64,000 nucleotides of DNA, from NCBI GenBank assembly GCA_903928915.1, contig CAIYSL010000033.1, positions 1 to 64,000 on the forward strand. Reading direction: 5' to 3'. This DNA comes from an uncultured Syntrophobacterales bacterium. Its GTDB lineage: Bacteria > Desulfobacterota > Syntrophia > Syntrophales > UBA5619. A model generated the notes under the pieces. That model saw nothing but the letters and a program-made list of their open reading frames with translations. It did no database searches and had not been told where the DNA came from. Below, piece by piece: positions 1-47,233 of the stretch. Every line of letters starts with the position of its first letter. Within the stretch, counting starts at the first letter, position 1. The position numbers and the translations under genes were made by a program.

Positions 1-84
1 ATCGGCAGCAGCTACCGCGGCATCGGCATCGGCGATTGCGTGAAGAGCGGGTTCGACGCTGCCGCGGCAATCGCCGCGCTGTGA
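1..84 (+). CDS. C-terminal tail of protoporphyrinogen oxidase-like flavoprotein (5' end outside window)
   Basis: Only the last 27 residues are present, ending at TGA 82-84. They read ...SSYRGIGIGDCVKSG..., which matches the conserved C-terminal FAD-contacting segment of oxygen-dependent-type protoporphyrinogen IX oxidases (HemY/HemG flavoprotein family), where SYRG-G-DC is typical. In heme synthesis such enzymes oxidise protoporphyrinogen to protoporphyrin. The call rests on this short motif alone, so another amine-oxidase-type flavoprotein is possible. A mobile-element remnant begins 16 bases after the stop. Confidence 0.6.
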   Translation: MGSSYRGIGIGDCVKSGFDAAAAIAAL

Positions 85-99
85 TTCAAGCCTACTCGA

Positions 100-262
100 T
101 GTCGATCGGCATTGAATATTGACCCACTTTTAGGCTGAATCGGCACCCAAAATTGACCCGCCTGAATCGATTATTTCTTCACGAGTTCTAATTCCGTAAC
201 CTCCGCGAGAGTGGGTCAAAATTCGATTCTGATAGCGGGTCAATATTCAATGCCGATCCACA
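100..262. mobile_element. 163-bp mini-element bounded by IS21-type inverted ends
   Basis: Positions 100-125 and 237-262 are inverted copies of one 26-base end (25 of 26 match) that starts TGT and contains GATCGGCATTGAATATTGAC. This is the style of IS21-family termini. Two further internal copies of the GACCC/GGGTCAA-type motif lie at about 146-160 and 211-225, as in the multiple terminal repeats of IS21 elements. There is no room for istA or istB, so this is either a MITE-like derivative or two solo ends left by deletion. I see no target-site duplication: the flanks are CTCGA on the left and TTACA on the right. Confidence 0.7.
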
Positions 263-377
263 TTACAACTACGAACGACCACATCGCGGCTACCGGAATA
301 TGGGCAGACGACCCATCGAAACGATTGAGGCTGGCAAGGCTGTCAAAGAGCAGGTGATGACCAAAGAGGCGGCTTAA
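261..377 (+). pseudogene. Remnant of integrase-core transposase (C-terminal 38 residues)
   Basis: Reading from 261 in frame gives HYNYERPHRGYRNMGRRPIE and on to TAA at 375-377. The NYERPH-GY---GR-P pattern is the C-terminal end of rve/integrase-core transposases of the IS481/IS3 type. No start codon or catalytic core remains, because the fragment abuts the right end of the mini-element. It is a dead relic showing that several insertions piled up between the oxidase gene and the tRNA fragment. Confidence 0.65.
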
Positions 378-513
378 ACATGGCCACCGAAGAGAGACTG
401 ACTGTCCGGGAAGCGGTTAATTTTTACAACTTATGAGTGGATGTATGCATAATCACGCGACTATGAACAATCCTCTCATATCCCTGCAAGACCCTGTTTC
501 TCCCCCAATTTAC
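378..513. other. Intergenic debris between transposase relic and tRNA fragment
   Basis: I see no convincing gene here. An ATG at 380 opens an 18-codon frame ending at 436 with no recognisable content. Positions 492-502 (CCCTGTTTCTC) are the exact inverse of 573-583, so the tRNA-Leu fragment is flanked by an 11-base inverted repeat. This may be a trace of the rearrangement that brought the fragment here. Confidence 0.4.
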
Positions 514-573
514 GTTCAGGGTCTAGTGGGTGTACGCCTGTCCGGGTTCAAATCCCGGCTTCGGCACCATAAG
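514..573 (+). repeat. tRNA-Leu(CAG) 3'-part duplicate, candidate attachment site of the adjacent integrase
   Basis: These 60 bases are identical to the 3' part of the intact tRNA-Leu gene at 47147-47233, from just 5' of the anticodon through the encoded CCA and the next four bases. The 5' half of the tRNA is missing: upstream sequence is unrelated. Downstream, even the tRNA terminator is recognisably similar. A tRNA 3' segment beginning at the anticodon and lying next to a tyrosine integrase is the classical layout of an attachment site. The copy is on the + strand, whereas the intact tRNA is on the - strand. Confidence 0.85.
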
Positions 574-581
574 AGAAACAG

Positions 582-609
582 GGGGTTAGCTGATTCATCG
601 GCTAGCCCC
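582..609. terminator. Hairpin after the tRNA fragment, also at the 3' end of the integrase
   Basis: GGGGTTAGC at 582-590 pairs with GCTAGCCCC at 601-609 around a 10-base loop, followed on the + strand by TTGTAGCATTTT. It resembles the hairpin 3' of the intact tRNA-Leu and was probably copied with it. It overlaps the last codons of the - strand integrase. Confidence 0.6.
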
Positions 610-1474
610 TTGTAGCATTTTGGAGGGCTTGGTCAACGTTTTGGTCAACACTTTTCAGAAACCCTTCCATTTGGTCAACAGCCTTCCGGGTATCTGACCC
701 ATCAACCGAGTCGTACCTCAAGAACATCTCCCTGGTCGAGTGACCCGTGATCTTCATGATGACCGATTCGGGCACCCCCGCTTTCCGCATGTTCGTATTG
801 AAGCAGTGGCGGGTATCGTGAAAGACGAACCCGTCCTTCTCGCCTCTACCGTAGGGAATTCCCACCTTACGGCAAGCCTTCCTTAAGGCTGTCCTGATAT
901 CTCGCACGGGCTTTCCCTTGTAGAGAAACACATGGTTGTCATGGATGGCCTGGGGAACATCATTCAAGATGCTGTACAGGGCATCACATATGGGGATCGT
1001 CCTGTCTTCACGATCCTTCGTTTCCGAGGCATCCAACCGAATCGTTCTAGCCTTCATGTTGATGTGGCTCCAGGTCAGATTCAAGACCTCGCCTCTCCGC
1101 ATCCCTGCATAGTACCCCGTAGCCAGGATCGCTCTTGTATGGACCGGAAGAGCGGCCATGAGTTTGTCAAACTCCTCCTGCGACAGAACACGATCCCTTG
1201 CATTTGCGTTTCCCTTGAGCAGGTTCTCGACTCGGCGGAAGACCTTCACGATCTCACCACCGACGAGGTCATTGTCGAACGCCTTGTTGATCATCGTCCG
1301 GGCTGCTCCGATCTGTGCATCAACATAGGAATCGGACAGACCCTCGGCTTTCCGCTTTGCCTGGTAGTTCTCCAGGTCAACCGGCTTAATCGCGTTGACG
1401 ATGGTATTCCCAAAGACCGCGTTGAAACTGTTCAGGTTAATCTTCAGTATCGGGTAATATGCACGCTGCCGCAC
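602..1474 (-). CDS. Tyrosine recombinase / site-specific integrase, N-terminally short
   Basis: This 290-residue protein has the complete catalytic set of phage-type integrases: R126 (in YYAGMRRGE), a lysine near 153, HDTRH giving H219 and R222, H245 (in GHSTRE) and the nucleophile Y254 (in LRYDS). A SAM-like core-binding region covers about residues 12-85. The usual N-terminal arm-binding domain of about 80-100 residues is absent: the frame opens at GTG 1474 and an in-frame TGA lies nine codons upstream. It ends beside the tRNA-Leu 3' fragment, which fits an integrase with its own attachment site. The gene is probably a truncated island or prophage relic, although the catalytic domain looks intact. 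No other phage or island genes follow; uspA comes next. Confidence 0.85.
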   Translation of the reverse strand: MRQRAYYPILKINLNSFNAVFGNTIVNAIKPVDLENYQAKRKAEGLSDSYVDAQIGAARTMINKAFDNDLVGGEIVKVFRRVENLLKGNANARDRVLSQEEFDKLMAALPVHTRAILATGYYAGMRRGEVLNLTWSHINMKARTIRLDASETKDREDRTIPICDALYSILNDVPQAIHDNHVFLYKGKPVRDIRTALRKACRKVGIPYGRGEKDGFVFHDTRHCFNTNMRKAGVPESVIMKITGHSTREMFLRYDSVDGSDTRKAVDQMEGFLKSVDQNVDQALQNATRG

Positions 1475-1585: not shown

Positions 1586-2062
1586 TCAACCCGGAACGTT
1601 CTTGTCCTTGCAGGGGATCACGAAGACCGGGATCGGGCTCCGCCTGATGACCCGCTCGGCCACGCTGCCGAGGAAGACGTGCTCGATCCCGGTCCTGCCG
1701 TGCGTGCCGAGCACGATGATGTCCATCTTTTCCTTCTCGGCAAATTCCAGGATCTTCTCGTCCTCGGTTCCCGTCGTGGTGACGACCTTGACCTTGGTCT
1801 TGTCCTTGATGTGGCACAGGTATTTCTCGTCGAACATGCGGGCGCGGTCTTCGTCGAGGGTAGCCTTGATCTGTTCGAGCTTCTTCTTGGTCAGATGGCG
1901 TTCGAAACGGTATTGCTGGGGAGTGACCGGTATGACGTGAAAGATGTACAGCATCCCCTCATCCCGCTTCGCGATCCCGAAGGCATAATCGAAGGCGCAA
2001 TCCGAATTCTTCGAGAAGTCGGTACAGAACAGGACCTTCTTGTACTTTGGGTAGTCGATCAT
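1586..2062 (-). CDS. Universal stress protein, UspA family, single domain
   Basis: This is a cytoplasmic nucleotide-binding stress protein of 158 residues, the usual single-domain length. An N-terminal beta strand carries an Asp near 15 (FCTDFS), and the ATP-binding signature G-x2-G-x9-G-S lies at about 119-133 (GTHGRTG...LGS), as in ATP-binding Usp proteins. The ATG at 2062 has a GGGAGG ribosome site a few bases upstream. It stands alone between the integrase relic and an amidohydrolase gene of the same strand, with its own terminator. The exact stress role cannot be read from sequence. Confidence 0.93.
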   Translation of the reverse strand: MIDYPKYKKVLFCTDFSKNSDCAFDYAFGIAKRDEGMLYIFHVIPVTPQQYRFERHLTKKKLEQIKATLDEDRARMFDEKYLCHIKDKTKVKVVTTTGTEDEKILEFAEKEKMDIIVLGTHGRTGIEHVFLGSVAERVIRRSPIPVFVIPCKDKNVPG

Positions 2063-47094: not shown

Positions 47095-47135
47095 AAAAAG
47101 CAACAGGGGATTAGCCGCTGAATCGGCCAACCCCC
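47095..47135 (-). terminator. Terminator of tRNA-Leu
   Basis: On the - strand a 12-bp stem (47135-47124 with 47117-47106, including three G-T pairs) follows the CCA end by about 12 bases and leads into five T (47099-47095). A diverged copy of this hairpin accompanies the tRNA fragment at 0.58 kb. Confidence 0.75.
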
Positions 47136-47146
47136 CTTATTGCTTA

Positions 47147-47233
47147 TGGTGCCGAAGCCGGGATTTGAACCCGGACAGGCGTACACCCACTAGACCCTGA
47201 ACCTAGCGCGTCTACCAATTCCGCCACTTCGGC
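47147..47233 (-). tRNA. tRNA-Leu, anticodon CAG
   Basis: This 87-base type II tRNA has an encoded CCA. Acceptor arms GCCGAAG and CTTCGGC pair fully. The anticodon stem CTAGG/TCTAG encloses the loop TTCAGGG with anticodon CAG (47199-47197). The long variable arm GTGGGTGTACGCC and T-arm GGTTCAAATCC are present. Its 3' 60 bases are duplicated at 514-573 beside the integrase. Confidence 0.97.

Follow-up and report, generated by a model that had tools for sequence, protein, structure and literature searches.

Why does a tyrosine integrase gene lie next to the 3' half of a tRNA-Leu, when the intact tRNA that matches it is found 46.6 kb away on the opposite strand? We analysed this arrangement in a window of 64,000 nucleotides, which is the whole stretch of DNA studied here and whose first base is base 1 of a contig of 179,672 bases, with 513 bases of that contig to the left of the attachment core. 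The assembly is of the metagenome type, consists of 141 contigs and branches at the hemG and IS ends. The features of the locus, together with comparable tRNA pairs from other genomes, are collected in Table 1.

Table 1. Features of the window and direct tRNA-Leu pairs in genomes with related integrases.
Feature	Position	Strand	Basis or separation
hemG (protoporphyrinogen oxidase) 3' end; contig begins inside the gene	1..84	+	identity to contig C83, TIGR00562
Short IS-like element, 30-base inverted-repeat ends (93%)	100..263		contig C83 terminates in a further copy of its end
IS 3' remnant: transposase C-terminus (261-377) and IS end, abuts P arm	261..434	+	similarity to L169, L167
P arm (putative), element end normally adjoining the displaced tRNA half (attR)	435..513	+	in-register homology to two attR sites
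Attachment core, tRNA-Leu(CAG) 3' half, anticodon loop to CCATAAG	514..573	+	60/60 vs tRNA 47147-47233 (-)
Terminator-like hairpin of P' arm	574..601	+	same hairpin beside intact tRNA-Leu at integrase-bearing L047, L048, L050, L066, L067
Tyrosine integrase gene truncated at its 5' end, 290 codons, catalytic domain retained	602..1474	-	PF00589
Three TTTGGTCAACA-like repeats inside integrase 3' end, candidate arm-type Int binding sites	628..680	+	similar repeats in relatives' P' arms
Universal stress protein gene, host, right neighbour of the relic	1586..2062	-	PF00582
tRNA 3' terminator, resembles P'-type terminators of the integrase family	47095..47146	-	z-score comparison
Intact tRNA-Leu(CAG), presumed attB / regenerated target	47147..47233	-	ARAGORN; only CAG Leu copy found in genome
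Direct tRNA-Leu / 3'-half pair	G042:C117		36.6 kb
Direct tRNA-Leu / 3'-half pair	G045:C72		21 kb
Direct tRNA-Leu / 3'-half pair	G043:C67		20 kb
Direct tRNA-Leu / 3'-half pair	G055:C57		21 kb
Direct tRNA-Leu / 3'-half pair	G049:C105		9.5 kb
Direct tRNA-Leu / 3'-half pair	G042:C101		8.2 kb

The tRNA-Leu fragment, its partner and the integrase gene

Window 514-573 on the forward strand is identical at 60 of 60 positions to part of the tRNA-Leu(CAG) at 47147-47233 on the reverse strand, an agreement that far exceeds chance. As the original prediction held, the identity runs from the anticodon to just past CCA: it starts at the last base of the 5' anticodon stem, passes through the anticodon loop and ends at CCATAAG, and a weaker similarity (88% over 113 bases) continues beyond it through the terminator hairpin. 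The start of the match at the anticodon loop and the adjacent integrase stop codon bear out the proposal that the fragment is the core of an attachment site. Core and intact tRNA are indeed inverted, not direct, and for sites on opposite strands the predicted outcome of recombination between them, inversion of about 46.6 kb instead of excision, is geometrically sound. That a second tRNA-Leu elsewhere might be the true partner had also been considered; this candidate was ruled out, since no other tRNA-Leu(CAG) was found in the genome assembly, which gives 46 tRNA hits and is rated 100% complete.

The terminator of the intact tRNA shows z-scores of 9.5-12 to L048, L067, window 570-621, L050, L066 and L068. 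Its likeness to the P' terminators of the integrase family may be a scar, which would mean that the site had been used before by an earlier insertion; the same terminator also reaches z=10 to G001, whose tRNA has no strong integrase match beside it. A perfect 11-base inverted repeat (CCCTGTTTCTC/GAGAAACAGGG) is present at 492-502 and 573-583, on either side of the core.

The reverse-strand open reading frame at 602-1474 encodes the catalytic domain of a tyrosine integrase (PF00589, E=3.6e-25), whose motifs are present. Its stop codon is 29 bases away from where the 60-base match ends, next to the fragment as had been claimed. Over most of the frame the protein is 53-82% identical to 19 relatives, which are about 400 residues long when complete. 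The window integrase is without the first ~107 N-terminal residues, in agreement with the original prediction of an incomplete N-terminus; it is cut at about codon 108, and a nine-residue lead unrelated to the relatives stands in their place. No close relative was found elsewhere in its own genome, where the only other match is partial and 43% identical. This second remnant (L159, G000:C51:1-342) is convergent with a tRNA-Lys and located at a contig end. Searches of phages and plasmids with the integrase returned distant matches only (26-29% among the best matches listed).

Islands of related integrases and the flanks of the core

We compared the locus with 23 related integrase loci from bacterial genomes, 19 of which carry most of the integrase. 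The gene is convergent with an adjacent intact tRNA-Leu (CAG or GAG) in 14 of the 23 and lies beside tRNA-His, SeC, Phe or Lys in five. Four loci are without an intact tRNA, owing to a contig end (L046) or a masked stretch (L065), or because a 3'-half core in the same orientation as the integrase gene is found instead (L061, L064). In the latter two the integrase gene is upstream of the tRNA-Leu 3' half; L064 (in G055:C57) marks the distal end of a tRNA-Leu island, whereas the usual place of the gene is beside the intact tRNA. When the genomes behind these loci were searched with the core, six pairs of an intact tRNA-Leu and a 3' half were recovered on the same contig, all of them direct and 8-37 kb apart (Table 1), and the displaced half starts at the anticodon loop each time. 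The related islands have the ordinary architecture of tRNA islands that use the anticodon subsite (PMC4383910). The one in G045 (L174, G045:C72:28100-48000) encodes an AAA regulator along with a family A DNA polymerase and a DNA methylase; two further products are a protein of 1015 aa that has no Pfam match and a patatin-like one similar to defence effectors of the CBASS type. The G049 island codes for a primase-like protein.

At the window site, the core is followed on its right by the P' terminator, the three TTTGGTCAACA-like repeats and the integrase gene, which is the arrangement seen beside intact tRNAs in other loci. On its left, the 77 bases at 435-511 align in register with the element ends at two attR sites. 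The identities amount to 56/79 for G045:C72 (z=8.0) and to 53/78 for G043:C67 (z=7.0), in each case with none of 1000 dinucleotide-preserving shuffles scoring as high, although the two partners are related to each other and the comparisons are thus not fully independent. The P arms of several other family islands, including one in G041, the genome with the integrase closest to that of the window, are not clearly similar to 435-513, and a search for the P arm in 155 genomes of the order yielded no matches other than IS copies that correspond to the IS remnant.

P arm, core and P' arm are contiguous. With a left flank that matches an element P arm and a right flank that carries a P' arm, the site reads as P-core-P', that is, as an attP. 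An attL that is missing its tRNA 5' half would have host DNA on the left; since an element end is seen there instead, the site at 514 appears to be the point where a circle is closed or where tandem elements meet, rather than such an attL. The earlier description of the fragment as lacking its 5' half is accurate in that it begins at the anticodon loop, but no half was lost, as the left flank is the other end of the element. Removal of the 5' half by an IS deletion was considered as well and ruled out, because the break falls exactly at the crossover point and is preceded by the P arm. The suggestion that the fragment forms an attL/attR pair with the tRNA at 47 kb does not hold either, since 435-513 matches attR-side element ends. 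The integrase gene beside this attP is not complete, and the absence of the ~107 N-terminal residues marks the site as decayed instead of working. To judge from sequence comparison, window 435-1474, comprising P arm, core, P' arm and truncated integrase gene, is thus probably a decayed attP.

Proposed origin and comparison with known elements

In a normal element, attP would recombine with the anticodon loop of tRNA-Leu, and integration would regenerate an intact tRNA next to the integrase gene and displace the 3' half to the far end in direct orientation. Here the two element ends would still be joined, as they are when the element is circular or where tandem copies adjoin, at a distance of 46.6 kb from the only matching tRNA and pointing the opposite way. 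The relic is flanked by IS debris and hemG on its left and by the universal stress protein gene on its right. Its P side seems to have been cut off by the IS remnant that leads to hemG, and its integrase side at about codon 108, after which the host gene follows. We infer that the element's own Int made the join at the core, and that an excised circle or a tandem copy was captured by an IS-mediated or other rearrangement and then deleted. The junction would thereby have been fixed between hemG and the universal stress protein gene, and the relic would now be inactive. It looks like a genomic fossil of ~1 kb, a case of ordinary genome decay rather than a working 46-kb DNA switch.

Genomic islands that target tRNA genes by means of tyrosine integrases have been described as the Islander class, with an anticodon-centred attP (PMC4383910). 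The window site has the same kind of integrase, a 3' tRNA fragment from the anticodon loop and an integrase gene next to the core, and relatives of its integrase form such islands. It differs in that fragment and tRNA are inverted and enclose no island, that the two ends of the element come together at the fragment, and that the integrase is truncated. An intact tRNA and a displaced fragment are present on the same replicon, as in Islander's definition, but they do not have the same orientation (fragment +, tRNA -) and do not enclose element DNA, and Islander's orientation filter would reject the pair. In tandem arrays of SGI1, attP junctions are documented between element copies (PMC2297512). 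There, as here, a chromosomal attP is found where one copy ends and the next begins; the relic, in contrast, retains no more than ~80 bases on one side and 0.9 kb on the other, and neither flanking att sites nor element bodies were found around it.

A tRNA fragment in the wrong orientation next to an integrase gene need not signal an inversion switch or a scrambled island, and it is the P arm that distinguishes attP from attL. The analysis also documents this family of tRNA-Leu integrases, which occurs in genomes of Syntrophaceae and other deltaproteobacteria and has a hotspot 3' of tRNA-Leu(CAG). Stranded attP sites, if common, would be fixed targets away from the tRNA for incoming relatives of the element.

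Alternative readings and the surrounding chromosome

The GC content of the 1.5-47 kb block is uniform, and in relatives its genes are scattered over other contigs, with DNA identities of up to 87%; the block is therefore ordinary chromosome and not an island. Around tRNA-Leu(CAG), 13 of 14 relatives (L109-L122) have the genes on the 5' side in the same order as window 47.3-56 kb. The 3' side is different in almost all relatives, the exceptions being G004 and G006, and by this comparison appears to be an insertion hotspot. A clear integrase remnant is found 3' of the tRNA in G015, and the 3' flanks in G002, G003 and G014 resemble integrase ends.

The geometry of the pair invites the reading of an invertible segment, in which Int would recombine attP at 0.5 kb with the tRNA at 47 kb and flip 46.6 kb, converting attP and tRNA into attL and attR and back, or in which the present state would be the frozen product of a single inversion. 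The inverted sites share the 60-base identity, and attP plus an intact tRNA is the expected product of recombination between inverted attL and attR. Moreover, the Int of Thermococcus pTN3 mediates chromosomal inversion between inverted tRNA-Leu copies (PMC5495485), a case that shares with ours the two inverted copies of tRNA-Leu sequence and an integrase of the tyrosine family. Unlike in Thermococcus, the window integrase is truncated and the inverted state was not seen. An integrase-driven inversion would show both orientations in the population or among relatives, but flipped junctions of the 46.6-kb segment are on none of the genome's own contigs. The comparison with relatives that the original prediction had proposed gave no sign of flipping, since the block is beside tRNA-Leu in none of the 14 relatives, in either orientation. 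A flip of the 0.5-47 kb block seen in relatives was ruled out, as the block is not kept there in any of them. Considering also that the Int is without its N-terminal ~107 residues and has no close relative elsewhere in the genome, we regard an invertible segment as unlikely. Inversion between the present pair is possible in principle but unlikely now, because the integrase is truncated. Also unlikely is the specific history in which Int recombined inverted attL and attR in the chromosome, flipped ~46.6 kb, restored the tRNA and left a chromosomal attP; if true, it would provide a bacterial parallel to the inversions known for tRNA-Leu integrases in archaea.

Quite improbable, in our view, is integration at a weak, non-tRNA secondary site next to hemG, which would make the left flank host DNA and the site an attL. 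Secondary attachment sites are known, for example for SGI1 (PMC2297512), and a core starting at the crossover point is what an attL at a foreign site would show. A host B arm, however, would not match element P arms in register as 435-513 does, which weighs strongly against this reading, and a matching attR was not found elsewhere in the genome. Least credible of all is that the site is half of an ordinary island at a tRNA-Leu missing from the assembly, or a misjoin between strains: the contig does begin 513 bases away at a graph branch in an assembly of 141 contigs, but the 46 tRNA hits of a genome rated 100% complete include tRNA-Leu(CAG) only at 47 kb, and the contig itself spans the junction of P arm, core and integrase gene, which is clear of the branch point (bases 99-183).

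To the left of base 434, an assembly misjoin is possible. The 174 bases of the IS remnant are 83% identical to L169 and L167, and its 38-aa C-terminus is 84-87% identical to theirs. Window 1-99 is identical to G000:C83:18436-18534, inside and just past the TIGR00562 hit, and C83 thereby adds to the left context; its final 84 bases are the same as window 100-183, so both paths run from hemG to the IS end. Window 1-183 and G000:C83:18436-20872 have these 99 bases in common at the hemG 3' end and 84 at the IS end, which in the simplest reading suggests that C83 and the window's contig (C33) represent strain variants that differ in the presence or absence of 2.3 kb between hemG and the IS.
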